Made by a program: the position numbers and the translations under genes. A stretch of 31,279 nucleotides of DNA from a virus: positions 1 through 31,279 of the IMG/VR virus record IMGVR_UViG_3300021375_000002. One strand, written 5' to 3'. A model generated the notes under the pieces. The model was given only the letters and a program-made list of their open reading frames with translations, was not told the DNA's origin and did no database searches. Shown in pieces: positions 1,973 to 18,255 of this stretch (within the stretch, counting starts at the first letter, position 1; every line of letters begins with the position of its first letter).

Positions 1973-3814
1973 TTAGCTCCCAATCGTTGCACCCTCTACA
2001 ATGTTGTTTTCTAAACTCTGTGCAGTTGTTACATCATTAGCTACTACATACGCTTGAACTGGCTGTTGGGTTTGACTTCCTACTGCCTCTGCTAATTGAC
2101 TTGTTTCTGTTGCGCCTACTATGTTGAATGATGGTGGCTGTGAAGAGCCAGCGCTCCCACTAGCAGCACCACCTCCACCAAGAGTACCAGCTACACTGTT
2201 AGCAGCGCCAGTTGCAGATTTTATAGCACCTATTATACCAGCCGCTTGTGCAGCATAACCAATCAACATTGGAATGTTTTGAGGAAAACCTATTTTAGCA
2301 GTTTGTGCTGTACCTTCAGCGACTGCTGTTGTACTTTTTGCTACTGCAAGTTTACTAAATGTTATGGTTTTTTTAGCTTCCATAATCATCTCCTTTAAAG
2401 CTAAACCTTGCTTAATTATCAAAAGTGCTTTACCAAGACCAGTTTCTGCACCAGCCAAACTGATTGCATCATCAAGAGCTTTTTGTTTTGCTGCTGTTTT
2501 TTGTTGTTCTAACTCTACCTCGGCATCTGTTATAGCTTTATTTTCTTCAAAAATTTTCTGTTTAGCTTCTAAATCTTCCTGGGCAAATTGATTGTTAAGC
2601 TCTAAAAGTTGTTCATCATAAACCTTTTTGGCTTCTAATAGTAAAATATTCTTTTCTGTTTCATCTGAAACTTGTTTATCAATTATTTCTTTTTGATCAA
2701 GATATTGTTGTTTAAGTTCTTCTCTCTGGACATCTCTTTCACTTTTACCTATTAAAGCGAGCTCTTGTTGAATTTCTTTTTGCTCTTTTAATAAAGAATT
2801 TACATTGACCTGTTGCTCACTTCTAAATCCAGTAATTTGAGCTTCAATCGCTGCTTGCTCATTCAAAGCTTCTATATAAGCTTTTTGTAATTCGATATTG
2901 TCTTTATTTTTTGACAATTCTGATGCTGCGGATGCAAGTTGAATTTCTGCATTTTTAAGCATGACTTTTTCTTGTTCATCTAAAATTAGAGCAAGCTCAT
3001 CATTTGCTTGTATACGTTCTTCAATACTTTTACTCTCATCATCTCTTATCTGCCTTAAACTTTCAGCTTGTCTGTCATACTTTTCAATTAACCCTTGATT
3101 TTTTACTGCTGCCAATTCTGCTGCTTTAGCAAGCTCTACATTTTCTTTAGCTGCTTTTACAGTTTCTGTTGCATAATTTTTTATTGTTTCAACAGTACTT
3201 TCAAAACTATCATCTACCCCAGTAACCACATCAACAGTCTGCTTTCCAGCTTCTTTAATAGTTTCAAAAGCTGCACTAAATTGACCAGTTACAAATTGAC
3301 CTAAAGCCTTACCAGCTAAACCAAGAACTTCAATGAACTCTTGAAATCTTACAACAATTCCTTCATAAATTCTTTTACCCAAGTCCTTAATTGCTTCGGC
3401 TGGATTTTCAAATATAGCTTTAAAAGTATCTACAATTCCTCCTTCACTTTCAAATAAAAAGCTGACAAAATCATTAAAAGCAATACTTACAACTTCAAAA
3501 GCTGTATTGAAAACATCTAAAACTTTTTGGTTTTGACTAAATACATCTTTTAATTTTAAAAATGCAGCAACCACTAAACCTATACCAGCCGCTTTCATTG
3601 CTGTGCCTAAACCTTTAAAACCTTTAGATAAACCTGCAATACCTTTAGAAGATTTTTTAGCATTTTTTTCAACTCCATCTAAAGCTTTTGATGAACTTTC
3701 TTGAGTTTCCTCTACTTCTTTATTTACTTCTTTTAAGGAATCTATAAGTTTGTCTAATCCTCCAGCCGCTTTTACAGCATCAACATCAATTACAATTTTC
3801 TTTTCTATTGCCAT
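1973..3814 (-). CDS. Tail length tape-measure protein
   Basis: Encodes 613 residues. The N-terminus (about 1-65) is charged and helical with Lys/Ser-rich stretches; residues about 65-90 form a small-residue hydrophobic helix (GLGTAMKAAGIGLVVAAFLK); residues about 210-450 are a long Glu/Gln/Lys-rich coiled coil; residues about 450-560 are Ala/Gly-rich and hydrophobic. This layout is that of tape-measure proteins, which span the tail lumen and set its length. By the usual approximately 0.15 nm per residue rule the tail would be near 90 nm, an estimate only. It follows the distal tail genes, whereas in lambda-like phages the tape measure usually precedes them. Confidence 0.85.
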   Translation of the reverse strand: MAIEKKIVIDVDAVKAAGGLDKLIDSLKEVNKEVEETQESSSKALDGVEKNAKKSSKGIAGLSKGFKGLGTAMKAAGIGLVVAAFLKLKDVFSQNQKVLDVFNTAFEVVSIAFNDFVSFLFESEGGIVDTFKAIFENPAEAIKDLGKRIYEGIVVRFQEFIEVLGLAGKALGQFVTGQFSAAFETIKEAGKQTVDVVTGVDDSFESTVETIKNYATETVKAAKENVELAKAAELAAVKNQGLIEKYDRQAESLRQIRDDESKSIEERIQANDELALILDEQEKVMLKNAEIQLASAASELSKNKDNIELQKAYIEALNEQAAIEAQITGFRSEQQVNVNSLLKEQKEIQQELALIGKSERDVQREELKQQYLDQKEIIDKQVSDETEKNILLLEAKKVYDEQLLELNNQFAQEDLEAKQKIFEENKAITDAEVELEQQKTAAKQKALDDAISLAGAETGLGKALLIIKQGLALKEMIMEAKKTITFSKLAVAKSTTAVAEGTAQTAKIGFPQNIPMLIGYAAQAAGIIGAIKSATGAANSVAGTLGGGGAASGSAGSSQPPSFNIVGATETSQLAEAVGSQTQQPVQAYVVANDVTTAQSLENNIVEGATIGS

Positions 3815-7703: not shown

Positions 7704-8230
7704 TTCTCTTTAATATTTATTTGTATCTGTTTTTCTATTCCTATTGAATAAGCTTTGACAAGATCATCTGGAAGTCTTTTGAATGCTCTTTCAAATGGCT
7801 TTGTAAAAAACATGCTAGCTTTCATACCAGTCTTGTAAACGCTTCTTGTTATTATATACCCAGTTTGCTCATAAGACAAAAATTTTCCTTTCTTATCTCT
7901 AAATTGAATACCTCTTCTTCGCACCCACTTATCAATGCCTTTAGTTAATCCACCTTTCTTTCCACTTCCAGTTCCAAACTTATATGGACTGTTGGGAGCT
8001 TTAGCACTTGAATCCTTTCCCTTAACACCTAAATCCTGGAACTTTCCATAGTCAGCCATTTTAAAAGCCATAGACGTCGAATCTTTACTTGACTCTATAT
8101 CATACCCTAAACTATTATAAAGCTCTTTAGATGTATTCTTTTTGCCTTTAGTTAGATTGCTTCTGCTTTGCTGAATCACATACTTTGCAAACTTGTTCAG
8201 CTCTTCCCTTAAGAATTTCTCTGCTAACAT
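7700..8230 (-). CDS. HK97 gp10-like head-tail joining/neck protein
   Basis: Encodes 176 residues, basic. The segment MADYGKFQDLGVKGKDSSAK corresponds to the typical aromatic-x-x-x-[DE]-x-G stretch of the HK97-gp10-like tail component family, whose members act at the neck between head and tail. It overlaps the previous gene by seven bases and is coupled (ATGA) to the next. Neighbours (tail terminator before, distal tail after) agree with the role. Confidence 0.65.
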   Translation of the reverse strand: MLAEKFLREELNKFAKYVIQQSRSNLTKGKKNTSKELYNSLGYDIESSKDSTSMAFKMADYGKFQDLGVKGKDSSAKAPNSPYKFGTGSGKKGGLTKGIDKWVRRRGIQFRDKKGKFLSYEQTGYIITRSVYKTGMKASMFFTKPFERAFKRLPDDLVKAYSIGIEKQIQINIKEK

Positions 8231-8694
8231 ATATCAATGTCATTTCTAACAAAGACATCAAATGTTGCTGCCCATCCAGCAAGTCGATTCTCAAACCGCT
8301 CATAGAATGGCTCAAGATTTGCGTCTCCATCAAGTTGGTATTGATCTGAATAAAGCACTCCTTTTCTCAAAATCATGACAAGCTTATTAAGAACTGCGAG
8401 TTGAGTATTCAAAATATCTTGTTCATTGTTGTTTCCTCTGAATATATCAGTCGTTGCTTCTTTGCTTTCATCCACTATGTCCATAGCGAGTACAGATATA
8501 TTGAAAGTAAGCGTTTGCTCTTGTGTTGTTACGTTGTTTATGATGATATGAGATAAGGGAAAGATTGATTGCTTTGATAAGTCAATGTCATATATATCTC
8601 CAGTGGTTACTGTATTTACATTCACATCATTAAGAAGCTGGTTTTTGATTGCTTCTGTTAATAGATAAAATCCTCTTACTCCTGTATTGCTCAT
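8224..8694 (-). CDS. Putative tail terminator / tail completion protein
   Basis: Encodes 156 residues. The C-terminal segment LAGWAATFDVFVRNDIDIC resembles the last beta-strand and NDxxxC end of a tail-completion family common in flavobacterial phages; the N-terminus (GVRGFYLLTEAIKNQLLNDV) is an amphipathic helix as in tail terminator folds. It starts one base after the stop of the frameshifted chaperone product. Tail terminators cap the tube and mediate head joining. The assignment rests on pattern recognition and gene order. Confidence 0.55.
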   Translation of the reverse strand: MSNTGVRGFYLLTEAIKNQLLNDVNVNTVTTGDIYDIDLSKQSIFPLSHIIINNVTTQEQTLTFNISVLAMDIVDESKEATTDIFRGNNNEQDILNTQLAVLNKLVMILRKGVLYSDQYQLDGDANLEPFYERFENRLAGWAATFDVFVRNDIDIC

Positions 8695-8695
8695 T

Positions 8696-9426
8696 TTATT
8701 TGAATTTACTTTTTATTTGTCTTGCTTCCAATTCATTTTTCTCTTTAGAGAAAGTTAGAAATGTTAAGCATTCATGCACATTTAATTTAGAGATATGTTC
8801 AAATTTTGTAATATCTCCGTTAGCGATTGCAAAGATGGAGTTGTACCATCCCCACTTTCTTGTGAAATTAGATACTCCGCTAAAATCTCCTCGTTCTTCT
8901 TGTCCAAAGAGTTGATCATAACTGTAGACAAGTCCTTCCCTAAACTGTAAAAAAAAACAATAGCTCCAAGCACTGCATCTAGAGGAAAGTCTTTTGCTTT
9001 CTCAAACTCCTCTGGTTGATACTCTTTAATGAAATATCTGTTTCCTCTCTTCATCTCCATTGGTCTGAAAAGAACATTTACAGCTCTATGCAAATTGTCA
9101 TTATCTCCAATGAAAGTATCCAAGTCAATATACTCTCCAAAAGTCATATCTTCTAGCGATGGAATAAATCCATATTCAACTCCATCTAATTTGAAACTAT
9201 TAATAAGCTGATGCTTCGTATCAAACATGTTGTTTATGATGTTGGATATTTCTGTGATATCAGTTGCCTTCATTCCTCGAACAGCTTCTCTTGGTACATT
9301 GCAAAAGATTTCAATTGCTTTTAATTGTAGCTCTGTTTCTGGAAGCTCACTCAATTTAGTGAACTCTTGATATTGTCCGAGAGTTATCTCATTCAATGAA
9401 GTTGGTATCGTAATTTTATAATTCAT
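8696..9426 (-). CDS. Tail assembly chaperone, -1 frameshift fusion (gpGT-like)
   Basis: Reading the first 159 codons in the zero frame and then shifting -1 on the heptamer T-TTT-TTT gives a 243-residue fusion. The added 84 residues start LQFREGLVYSYDQLFG, contain TRKWGWYNSIFAIANGD and end EARQIKSKFK, stopping at TAA 8698-8696, one base before the next gene. The -1 frame has no stop from the slip site to this TAA. Such tail chaperone frameshifts are known in many tailed phages; the W-G-W-Y...GDITKF pattern is one I associate with the chaperone extension of Bacteroidota phages. Fusion frequency cannot be judged from sequence. Confidence 0.75.
8782..9426 (-). CDS. Tail assembly chaperone, unshifted product (gpG-like)
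   Basis: The zero-frame product is 214 residues, starting MNYKITIPTSLNEITLGQYQ. It is a soluble, acidic, helical protein just after the terminase. The downstream -1 frame from the T9 run carries an 84-codon extension with the KWGWYNSIFAIANGDITKF signature, which identifies the pair as a gpG/gpGT-like chaperone set that binds the tape-measure protein and recruits tail tube subunits. The start at 9426 is preceded 12 bases upstream by the TTATATATTAAT element. Unshifted ribosomes add 55 residues after the slip site before stopping. Confidence 0.75.
   Translation of the reverse strand: MNYKITIPTSLNEITLGQYQEFTKLSELPETELQLKAIEIFCNVPREAVRGMKATDITEISNIINNMFDTKHQLINSFKLDGVEYGFIPSLEDMTFGEYIDLDTFIGDNDNLHRAVNVLFRPMEMKRGNRYFIKEYQPEEFEKAKDFPLDAVLGAIVFFYSLGKDLSTVMINSLDKKNEEILAEYLISQESGDGTTPSLQSLTEILQNLNISLN
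8949..8957 (-). promoter_or_regulatory. Programmed -1 ribosomal frameshift site (T9 run)
   Basis: On the minus strand a run of nine T follows the G of a GTT codon; codons are GTT TTT TTT TAC, so 8956-8950 form the slippery heptamer T TTT TTT of the X XXY YYZ type. After slipping, the next codon is TTA and the frame is open for 84 codons. A stimulatory structure downstream was not determined. Confidence 0.75.
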
Positions 9427-9473: not shown

Positions 9474-10637
9474 TTAATGCACTGCATATTTACCAAAGTT
9501 AGGTCTGCTTAATAATGAATAAGTCGCATACCGTACCGCATCAATGATATGGTTGTTTTTATCCACTGGTTTATTTGTTAGCTTTCCACTCCTATCCTCT
9601 AGCCATTTATAGTTCCTAAACTCCTGGATTGCATTCTCACTATCCTTTGTGATATGTATTTTAAATCTCTTTAATAAATCAATACCAGCATTTACTGAAT
9701 CTCTTCCTTTTAATGATGGTTGTATATTGTGTCCCATTCTACGGAGCTCATCAATAAGACGTGGCTCTGCTGAATCAAAAAAGATTGTATTCCTTCCAAC
9801 TCCCACTTGCTTAAAGTGATCACTTAAATCCTTTGTTGTCATCATTGTTCTATAAAGATGCTCTTCGATATATAGATTGTAGTCTTTCTTATATACAGAC
9901 ACTAAAGTGCTTGGGTCATTAGTATATCCAGCATCAGCTCCAAAGCTCACAAACTCTGCATCTTCTGGAATCTTATCAGCTTCATAATATTTAAAGATAG
10001 TTGCTTTGCTTACCCCTCTCATTCCCAGACCATAAATCTGCCAGTATTGTTCATCTGTTTCTTTTAATCGCTCAATCTCTTCAACGATGCTTTGCTCCAG
10101 GAATGGATTGTCTAGATATGTTGTTCTATAAAAGTCAGCATCATCTCTTGGAATAACCTTGTCATATATCCAGTGGTATTCATCAGATGGATTGTAATCA
10201 ATTATGATTTTCTCTTGAGTTCTGAATACTAACTGTTGCCAATCTTCATAGTCAAGCTCATTGGCTTCGTTAATAAACAGCACATCTCTTTTCCGACCTC
10301 TAATCTTCTGCGGTTGATCAACAGAAATAAATTCGATGAGGTTTCCATTTAGCTTGTATTCGCTATTTGATTTATTGTGATTCTCTTCTCTATATAAACC
10401 ATACTCTTTAAGGATAGTTAAGAAATCTCTCATGACAGTAGCTCTAACACTAGGGAAAGTCTTTCTGCAAATAGTGATTGTTCTACCCTTATCATTTAGG
10501 CAATAGTCAAAAACAAGGAAGAGCAAAACATTCCACGTCTTTCCGCTTCTTGTTCCACCCTCGTGAATAGCTATCTTTCCAGTGCTGTTCCTTAAGTGTC
10601 TATAAACTATGTTAGTCTGTATCCTTGATCTTGTCAA
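9474..10637 (-). CDS. terL: Terminase large subunit
   Basis: The 387-residue packaging motor has Walker A at residues 27-34 (GGTRSGKT), Walker B at 118-126 (DVLFINEAN, with the catalytic Glu) and a C-terminal RNase-H-like nuclease with Asp235 (FGADAGYTND), Asp288 (IFFDSAEP) and Asp366 (NHIIDAVRY). This is the complete ATPase-plus-nuclease layout that pumps DNA into the prohead and cuts it. It resembles the PBSX/Terminase_6-type group. The start overlaps the small subunit by 26 bases. The portal gene lies far away, past the tail and capsid genes, instead of next to it as in many phages. Confidence 0.96.
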   Translation of the reverse strand: MTRSRIQTNIVYRHLRNSTGKIAIHEGGTRSGKTWNVLLFLVFDYCLNDKGRTITICRKTFPSVRATVMRDFLTILKEYGLYREENHNKSNSEYKLNGNLIEFISVDQPQKIRGRKRDVLFINEANELDYEDWQQLVFRTQEKIIIDYNPSDEYHWIYDKVIPRDDADFYRTTYLDNPFLEQSIVEEIERLKETDEQYWQIYGLGMRGVSKATIFKYYEADKIPEDAEFVSFGADAGYTNDPSTLVSVYKKDYNLYIEEHLYRTMMTTKDLSDHFKQVGVGRNTIFFDSAEPRLIDELRRMGHNIQPSLKGRDSVNAGIDLLKRFKIHITKDSENAIQEFRNYKWLEDRSGKLTNKPVDKNNHIIDAVRYATYSLLSRPNFGKYAVH

Positions 10638-11108: not shown

Positions 11109-11774
11109 CTAAATTTCCCTTCTCTTTTGGAGGGTTATTTTTTCCCCCTTATACATACCAGCTCCTAGCTCATCAATCATTTTAAAGTCTAATATCTCTG
11201 GCACTATCTTACAGCTTTTATCTATTAAGAGAATGTATCTGTTTTGGAATCCTTCAAGAGCTTTAGCTCCATTGAAGTCATACTTGCTATCTCCACGCTT
11301 TGCTACTATCTCTCCATTTGCAAGTTGATATATAGTTCCGTTTTTATTTATTTGTGTTAGCTTGAATCCGCTGGCTCTGTATATTGTTCCATCTCCGCAC
11401 TGCGTTGCATCCGAGTAGCTTAATATCCATTTAATTTGCGGTGCATTCTTTTTGATCATGCGGATACTGATTGCTATACATCGGCTCTCTGAATACTTTG
11501 GGAGATAATCATCAAAAGCCATTCTATTAAGCTCCAGCATCTCATTCCATCTTTTGTTTATATCTGATTCTCCAGAATCCACTAAAGGAAGAACGTTTCT
11601 TTTATCCATTGGACTACCATAACTCATTACTCCATGCAGTTGATTATCCAGGAAGCATCCGAAGTGCAGACTGCTCATATTGACAACCTTTCCAGAATAG
11701 TGATGTTTCTTTACAAAAGCATTCGCTATCTTGGAGTTTATAACTTTAACGATTATTTCCTTTGCTCTACCCAT
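11109..11774 (-). CDS. Mom-like DNA modification protein (GNAT fold)
   Basis: The 221-residue protein resembles the phage Mu Mom family, which converts adenine in DNA to a carbamoylmethyl form that blocks many restriction enzymes. Visible family features are an N-terminal KKHHYSGK (23-29), an HFGCF...LHGVMSYGSP strand pair (38-55), the LELNRMAF segment (80-87), and the SYSDATQCGDGTIYRASGF block (119-137), the GNAT-like core. The start overlaps the upstream ParB-like gene by 22 bases, a pairing common in phages. In Mu, mom is tightly regulated because the modification is toxic; no regulator is evident here. The exact chemistry in this phage is unknown. Confidence 0.8.
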   Translation of the reverse strand: MGRAKEIIVKVINSKIANAFVKKHHYSGKVVNMSSLHFGCFLDNQLHGVMSYGSPMDKRNVLPLVDSGESDINKRWNEMLELNRMAFDDYLPKYSESRCIAISIRMIKKNAPQIKWILSYSDATQCGDGTIYRASGFKLTQINKNGTIYQLANGEIVAKRGDSKYDFNGAKALEGFQNRYILLIDKSCKIVPEILDFKMIDELGAGMYKGEKITLQKRREI

Positions 11775-12731: not shown

Positions 12732-13385
12732 TTAAAATAATTCTATTTGTTTAATATCTTTCTTTTTTATGATTCCCATTGCTGTGTCAAGAATTGTCTT
12801 ACCAGCTTCATACTCTACAAGATTTCTTGCAATCTTTACTGTGCTTTGCTTTCCTTTATATTGTTTAAAATTATAATTGTGGAACTCGCAAAGCTTGTTC
12901 AATTCATCTGTACTATTACCAAAAACTGGTGGCTTTCTTTTACTTAATTCATTGGGAAGATTAAAGTTTGTCCAATAAAGATGTCTACCTCTTTTATGTG
13001 CTTGGATAAGTGGCTCATAATAAGGAACAACATTCTCAACAACATACTTTCCTTTAAATCTTGGATTCTCTCCTTTTGAAACTAACTCCAGTAATATGAT
13101 TTGTTGATAAAGTGACATATCTGGATACTGTGCTTTATATTTTGAGTTATACGCTCTGGCTCTGGAATGAGTTGGACAAGGTGGAGAGCTCCAGATGAAA
13201 TCAAAATCTTGATAATTGTCAAGAAGATATTGATGTGCATCCGCAACAATAACTTTATCGTTTGGAAATCTCTCTTGATATAGTCTTGCAAGTTCCTCAT
13301 CCCACTCCACTGCTGTTATTTCATGCTCATCTCCCCACTTATAGCGGTTACCTCCAAGACAAGCGTATAAGTTTAAAATTCTCAT
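12732..13385 (-). CDS. C5-cytosine DNA methyltransferase-like protein (first of two)
   Basis: The 217-residue protein has C5-cytosine methyltransferase motifs in order: SAM-binding motif I (LNLYACLGGNRYKW), a VEWDEELA motif II-like segment, IWSSPPCPTH with catalytic Cys70 in P-P-C, and VVENVV with motif VI E-N-V (117-119). At this length the target recognition region is very small compared with the 300-400 residues of stand-alone enzymes, so specificity may be relaxed or a partner may be needed. The start overlaps the DUF3310 gene by ATGA. It probably protects phage DNA from restriction. Confidence 0.85.
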   Translation of the reverse strand: MRILNLYACLGGNRYKWGDEHEITAVEWDEELARLYQERFPNDKVIVADAHQYLLDNYQDFDFIWSSPPCPTHSRARAYNSKYKAQYPDMSLYQQIILLELVSKGENPRFKGKYVVENVVPYYEPLIQAHKRGRHLYWTNFNLPNELSKRKPPVFGNSTDELNKLCEFHNYNFKQYKGKQSTVKIARNLVEYEAGKTILDTAMGIIKKKDIKQIELF

Positions 13386-17628: not shown

Positions 17629-18255
17629 TTAACTTTTTAAAATTTCTAAACATAACTGCTCTGGTATCTTACTTCTATTGTAATTACCTTTAAGTCCTTG
17701 AGTTCCAGTTTGACTTCCTCTTGGAGCTCTTTCATGATGACAATTAGGGTTTCCGTTTGAGCACTCTGGTCTTGGATTCCATCCATCTGGATTCAAAAGC
17801 GACCTTAAATTATTTGTCCATATATCTGTCGGCTTTGCTCTTATATCTCCATAACGACAATACCAAACTGTTGTTCTTGGAATGCCCTCAACAACTGGAA
17901 GCTTTCTTAACTTTCCTCTTGGATTTTCTATATACCATTTTTTTGGTTTTAGCTCTTTTATAATTTCAAGAGTTTTTTCAACAAAAGCAACTCCTTTTAA
18001 AGCGTTTTCAGATTTTGGAGTATTGTCTTTATTCCAATGCTTTCCAATGCTGGCAACAGAAAAGTAAGTGCATGGAGGAGATGCCCAAATAATATCTGGC
18101 TTGAAAGGAACTTTGCTTATATCAAACTCCATAATATCAACAGCATAATCAATACCATCAAAAGCATTTACATCAGAGCTGAAAACTTCATATCCAATAG
18201 ATTCTGCTACTTTACCTACGCTTCTACTTCCAGCGAATAATTCAAGAACTTTCAT
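17629..18255 (-). CDS. C5-cytosine DNA methyltransferase-like protein (second of two)
   Basis: The 208-residue protein has motif I LELFAGSRSVGKVAESIG, motif II-like SSDVNAFDG, catalytic Cys62 in WASPPCTYFSVAS, and motif VI in altered form as YIENPRGKLRKLP (E-N-P at 110-112). The C-terminus RSKIPEQLCLEIL fits motif X. It is short for the family. Its ATG overlaps the stop of a PD-(D/E)XK nuclease gene (ATGA at 18252-18255), an arrangement like a restriction-modification pair. It is not closely similar to the methyltransferase at 12732-13385, so the two probably differ in target. Confidence 0.82.
   Translation of the reverse strand: MKVLELFAGSRSVGKVAESIGYEVFSSDVNAFDGIDYAVDIMEFDISKVPFKPDIIWASPPCTYFSVASIGKHWNKDNTPKSENALKGVAFVEKTLEIIKELKPKKWYIENPRGKLRKLPVVEGIPRTTVWYCRYGDIRAKPTDIWTNNLRSLLNPDGWNPRPECSNGNPNCHHERAPRGSQTGTQGLKGNYNRSKIPEQLCLEILKS

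Follow-up and report, generated by a model that had tools for sequence, protein, structure and literature searches.

Reading frames around the T run

The window analyzed here is the whole IMG/VR virus record IMGVR_UViG_3300021375_000002, a stretch of 31,279 bases with 34% GC. On its minus strand, the gene of the terminase large subunit (9474..10637; PF04466, E 1.7e-25; PHROG 2) is directly followed by an open reading frame at 8782..9426. This 0-frame ORF encodes a short product of 214 aa, which consists of an N domain up to residue 159 and a 55-residue tail, and matches PHROG 32199, a family of unknown function (E 1.5e-18). The ORF contains a run of nine T (T9) at 8949..8957 of the minus strand, read as A9 on the plus strand. 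The original prediction was that a programmed -1 frameshift at this run, after the terminase, builds a tail chaperone fusion. Recomputing the positions reproduced its reading of the frames. The codons GTT TTT TTT TAC occupy 8958..8947 of the minus strand, the run is exactly T9, and the heptamer T TTT TTT is in the correct phase at 8956..8950. The -1 frame offers 84 open codons (8699..8950, minus strand), closed by the TAA at 8698-8696, one base before the ATG at 8694 of the next gene. Joined to the N domain, this extension gives a fusion of 243 aa, in which the KWGWY...GDITKF segment is present. The unshifted product continues for 55 residues beyond the second Phe and ends at 8782; this tail lies over the first part of the -1 extension and forms a dual-coding overlap at 8785..8949 (minus strand).

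The next gene downstream (8224..8694, minus strand) encodes a protein of 156 aa that matches PHROG 30964, of unknown function, and is possibly a tail completion protein. Apart from the run at 8949-8957, no sense-strand run inside a predicted gene of the window reaches nine T; the two further 9-base A/T runs lie between genes. The minus strand of the window also encodes a Mom-family DNA modification protein (11109-11774; PF25680, E 2.4e-43) and two short C5-cytosine methylase-like proteins (12732-13385 and 17629-18255), each corresponding to only part of PF00145.

Conservation of the site and coding in both frames

Relatives were drawn from viral contigs, genome contigs and phage records and confirmed by tblastn. 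The 337 complete loci form 92 clusters at 80% identity and 26 clusters at 50% identity, and reach down to about 30% identity, including the isolate Nonlabens phage P12024L. Most of the few excluded loci were cut by contig ends, and one (L017) has a 1-nt deletion upstream. All 337 complete relatives turned out to keep the in-phase T run, the long -1 extension and the open 0-frame tail. Lengths were measured in 77 clusters and range over 80-93 aa for the -1 extension and over 16-90 codons for the 0-frame tail. The run is T9 in 218 loci and T10 in 119, and is never shorter. Six independent metagenome assemblies (L002-L007) at 95-96% identity have the same T9, and together with the isolate phages this makes a miscounted run unlikely. 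The original prediction would have been undermined if the -1 extension had no homologues joined to gpG-like proteins; in the relatives, the extension was found together with the same N domain.

The only isolates found with the pair are the Nonlabens phages P12024L and P12024S. The P12024L record lists it as two hypothetical proteins, P12024L_40 and P12024L_41; the site is CTT TTT TTT TAT, and the -1 frame reads FLSFRERLRDLYPELY...KWGWY. The pair is also present on contigs of metagenome-assembled genomes from Winogradskyella and another Bacteroidetes bacterium, and on one contig binned as Epsilonproteobacteria. Since the isolates are Nonlabens phages and MAG contigs come from Winogradskyella and Bacteroidetes, the hosts are most likely marine Flavobacteriia.

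In two loci, L208 (490-1239; T10) and L179 (1001-1738; T11), one extra T is present, and the DNA itself encodes the fusion. In these frame-swapped copies, the short frame has remained open and would be read with one T fewer. They are either natural variants or assembly errors. In a third locus, L210, an in-frame deletion spans the slip site; no T run is left there, and the N domain is continuous with the extension.

To evaluate coding in the overlap, we relied on a codon-position test with 36 thinned close relatives of the window and on a simulation of open frames. The wobble variability of the 0 frame fell from 0.505 upstream to 0.255 in one half of the overlap and 0.174 in the other. For the -1 frame, it was 0.198 and 0.224 in the overlap, against 0.382 in the part encoded by the -1 frame only. 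Wobble-position variability is thus suppressed for each frame within the overlap, which indicates that both frames are constrained there. Given the -1 amino acids, the probability that the 0 frame stays open by chance over 54 codons was about 0.01 for one sequence. In much of the clade L211-L258, the 0 frame continues for 86-90 codons past the slip site, so that the two frames overlap almost completely, and for the clade with an 86-codon overlap no simulation kept the 0 frame open under the same condition. A null model of independent draws for 0-frame identity was set aside because it ignores shared ancestry.

Upstream of the run, the -1 frame is closed by a stop, which directly adjoins the T run in L294 and lies 5-8 nt away from it in several other clusters. 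Conservation of the -1 frame starts with the first residues after the run. These two boundaries place the frame transition at the T run itself. Taken together, comparison of the sequences supports a conserved programmed transition that would yield both an N-domain protein and a longer -1 fusion.

RNA polymerase or ribosome at the T run

Both RNA polymerase and the ribosome could change the frame at such a site. The heptamer named in the original prediction implies a ribosomal -1 slip. Two tRNA-Phe would slip on U UUU UUU, comparable to the shift of lambda G/GT; the additional T's would then reflect hydrophobic residues in the two frames or a mild context effect. A heptamer of the form X XXY YYZ (T TTT TTT) does lie in phase in all 337 loci, and the tail chaperones covered by a published review rely on ribosomal frameshifting (PMC5009743). 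However, a ribosomal heptamer needs seven T, and runs of seven or eight were never found in the complete loci. The length of the run is kept while its register moves, and the run begins at all three codon positions. Besides the common GTT TTT TTT TAC, we found GGT TTT TTT TTG (L095), AGT TTT TTT TTT (L173, L294, L229) and TTT TTT TTT CTN (the L176 clade, 15 loci). The two flanks compensate each other: when the 5' codon contributes no T beyond its last base (GGT, AGT), two or three T come from the 3' flank, and when the 3' flank has no T (CTN), the first codon is TTT. The joint chance of this is about 3e-4, a rough value obtained from simple cluster-level frequencies that ignore phylogeny.

The choice of Phe codons also argues against the ribosome. 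Both Phe codons of the site are TTT in 337 of 337 loci, although 26% of all Phe codons in these genes are TTC. In most clusters, a TTC at the site would leave the amino acids of both frames unchanged; with phylogeny ignored, its absence has a p of about 1e-4 to 1e-3. In E. coli, the organism to which this evidence refers, ribosomes slip efficiently on the heptamer U_UUU_UUC (PMC4066793), but T TTT TTC does not occur in any of the loci. A stimulatory RNA structure was not detected downstream: RNAalifold, whose model does not cover pseudoknots, gave 0 conserved pairs, and no excess of folding was seen over 77 clusters (mean z +0.14 to +0.24). Ribosomal frameshift sites often have such a structure but do not require it.

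Published criteria for transcriptional slippage fit the site. Transcriptional realignment is expected at Tn with n>8 (PMC3711429), and a nine-base run whose length is conserved among homologues is regarded as very likely purposeful slippage (PMC1088944). Sense-strand T runs across all loci comprise 21 T8, 222 T9 and 41 T10. Because at least nine T are kept in any register, only TTT is used, no RNA stimulator was detected and these criteria fit, we favor transcriptional slippage over ribosomal frameshifting. The floor of nine T must be read with the caveat that it is partly driven by amino acids, since V/L-F-F in frame 0 and L/F in frame -1 favor T at the flanks, and to this extent the flanking T's are also compatible with the ribosome. 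The VFFY-like motif is hardly present in other genes and is too rare to serve as a control. Thus, the programmed frame transition at T9 stood, while its assignment to a ribosome acting on the T TTT TTT heptamer was not supported in that form, since the constraint is for at least nine T whatever the register. Ribosomal frameshifting as the source of the fusion now appears unlikely, though it is the most serious competitor, and both kinds of slippage may act at the site.

In the favored mechanism, RNA polymerase would realign on the template at T9, and a fraction of the transcripts would gain one U (or drop two). Most transcripts would carry U9 and give the short protein of 214 aa, and the realigned ones would give the N domain with the 84-residue -1 extension, 243 aa in all. 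We estimate the probability of the whole explanation, a G/GT-like chaperone locus with RNA-polymerase slippage at the T run, at about 65%.

Slippage could also occur at the level of DNA, that is, T9 and T10 genomes would be mixed in the phage population, and each would make one protein. A/T homopolymers are mutable, and two of about 340 loci (L179 with T11 and L208 with T10) are frame-swapped. Nevertheless, the swapped state is rare, both frames are under selection, and a G/GT-type system requires both products in one cell, which makes such phase variation very improbable. We give even less weight to the -1 ORF being a separate gene, expressed from an internal start or through reinitiation where the short ORF stops. 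The short ORF of P12024L does end with TAATG and the pair is annotated there as two genes, but only 14 of 92 clusters have an ATG, GTG or TTG in the -1 frame at most 20 codons from the run, and the window has no -1 start codon until codon 57. Conservation right after the run, and a single predicted helix that spans the junction, are also at odds with a separate gene. Finally, homopolymers are error-prone in sequencing and assembly, but the two frames stand in the same relation in 337 loci, which come from many metagenomes and from deposited isolate genomes. This and the dual-coding selection leave a miscounted run or a broken gene with hardly any probability.

Putative tail-chaperone role and comparison with known systems

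To assess the structure of the fusion, we used the naturally fused form L208. AlphaFold2 (alignment of 81 rows) predicted it with a pLDDT of 94.7 and a pTM of 0.87, and in the model a single helix passes through the slip point. The predicted 0-frame product has a confident N domain and an ill-defined end, with block means dropping from 74 to 38 after the slip point. Foldseek found 43 viral predicted structures at E<=1e-3, P12024S among them and none with an assigned function. The first match with a named function was weak, the tail assembly chaperone of Arthrobacter phage Kitkat (E 0.033, prob 0.97, TM 0.36). A search of the PDB by sequence, by Foldseek and by VIA-align gave no usable match, and for the last two methods absence proves nothing. 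When the fusion, short form and extension were used as queries, Pfam and PHROGs yielded nothing beyond PHROG 32199 and a weak match to phrog_166 (tail protein). The extension alone had a single tblastn match among phage records, which we dismissed as chance. Flavobacterium phage 6H gp10 (L357, 10352-10927, minus strand) is a weak structural relative with a long open -1 frame from just before the gene end and without a poly-T run; it may use a different signal for the frame transition.

The order of terminase and then the pair is the same in Nonlabens phage P12024L. The likely tape-measure gene of the window (1973..3814, minus strand; 613 aa), to which we assign this role from a match to PHROG 21537 'virion structural protein' (E 1.4e-26), lies about 4.9 kb downstream of the pair with four genes between them. 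The pair had been described as lying about 5 kb upstream of the tape measure, and with this assignment the distance agrees; the usual, non-obligatory adjacency is not found here. From the two-product architecture, the position in the structural module after the terminase and the weak structural match, we infer a tail assembly chaperone of the G/GT-like kind. Chaperones of this type bind the tape-measure and tail-tube proteins and are absent from the virion. If the pair works like lambda gpG/gpGT, its short form would be the abundant one and cover the tape-measure protein, while the rarer fusion would bring in the tail-tube subunit. The name 'gpG-like' thus holds as a working analogy of architecture and synteny and not as sequence homology, since no relation to lambda gpG or gpT was detected by hhalign.

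Tail chaperones made by frameshifting are a long-established theme of phage biology. The likely hosts make little use of Shine-Dalgarno pairing, which is a usual stimulator of ribosomal frameshifting. Tail chaperones have been described as cases of ribosomal frameshifting (PMC5009743), and apparent slippage in the tape-measure gene of an Acinetobacter prophage was mentioned in one sentence (PMC6095929). In the literature on transcriptional slippage and on tail assembly chaperones and tape measures, subscription papers aside, we found no earlier report of a tail chaperone expressed by slippage. Judging from sequence, it is somewhat probable that in widespread tail chaperones of marine flavophages the ratio of the two forms is set by RNA-polymerase slippage and not by the ribosome, with the stoichiometry fixed in the mRNA pool. 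If so, phages can arrive at this two-protein arrangement at a different level of gene expression as well. Hundreds of gene pairs now labeled 'hypothetical', that of P12024L/S among them, would become one two-product gene, and the relatives form a natural data set for telling the transcriptional and ribosomal mechanisms apart.

The locus resembles lambda gpG/gpGT in having a short protein and a longer -1 fusion with a common N domain within a tail gene module. It differs in the poly-T run of at least nine, where lambda-type systems have a mixed heptamer, in not adjoining the tape-measure gene and in having no detectable sequence homology. The 0-frame overlap is usually 37-90 codons, whereas the mean distance from slip to stop in the SEA-PHAGES set is 26 nt (PMC10885494). 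With programmed transcriptional realignment, as in Shigella mxiE, Thermus dnaX (A9) and several IS elements, the locus shares an A/T run of at least nine with conserved length and an overlapping ORF in another frame; an extra U leading to the long product has been described for mxiE (PMC1088944). In contrast to these systems, ours is a structural phage gene in which such slippage is predicted. The homologous pair of Nonlabens phages P12024L/S likewise directly follows the terminase and has T9 and the KWGWY extension in the -1 frame. That pair is only about 31% identical, its 0-frame tail is shorter, and it is annotated as two unrelated hypothetical genes, with the fusion unrecognized.
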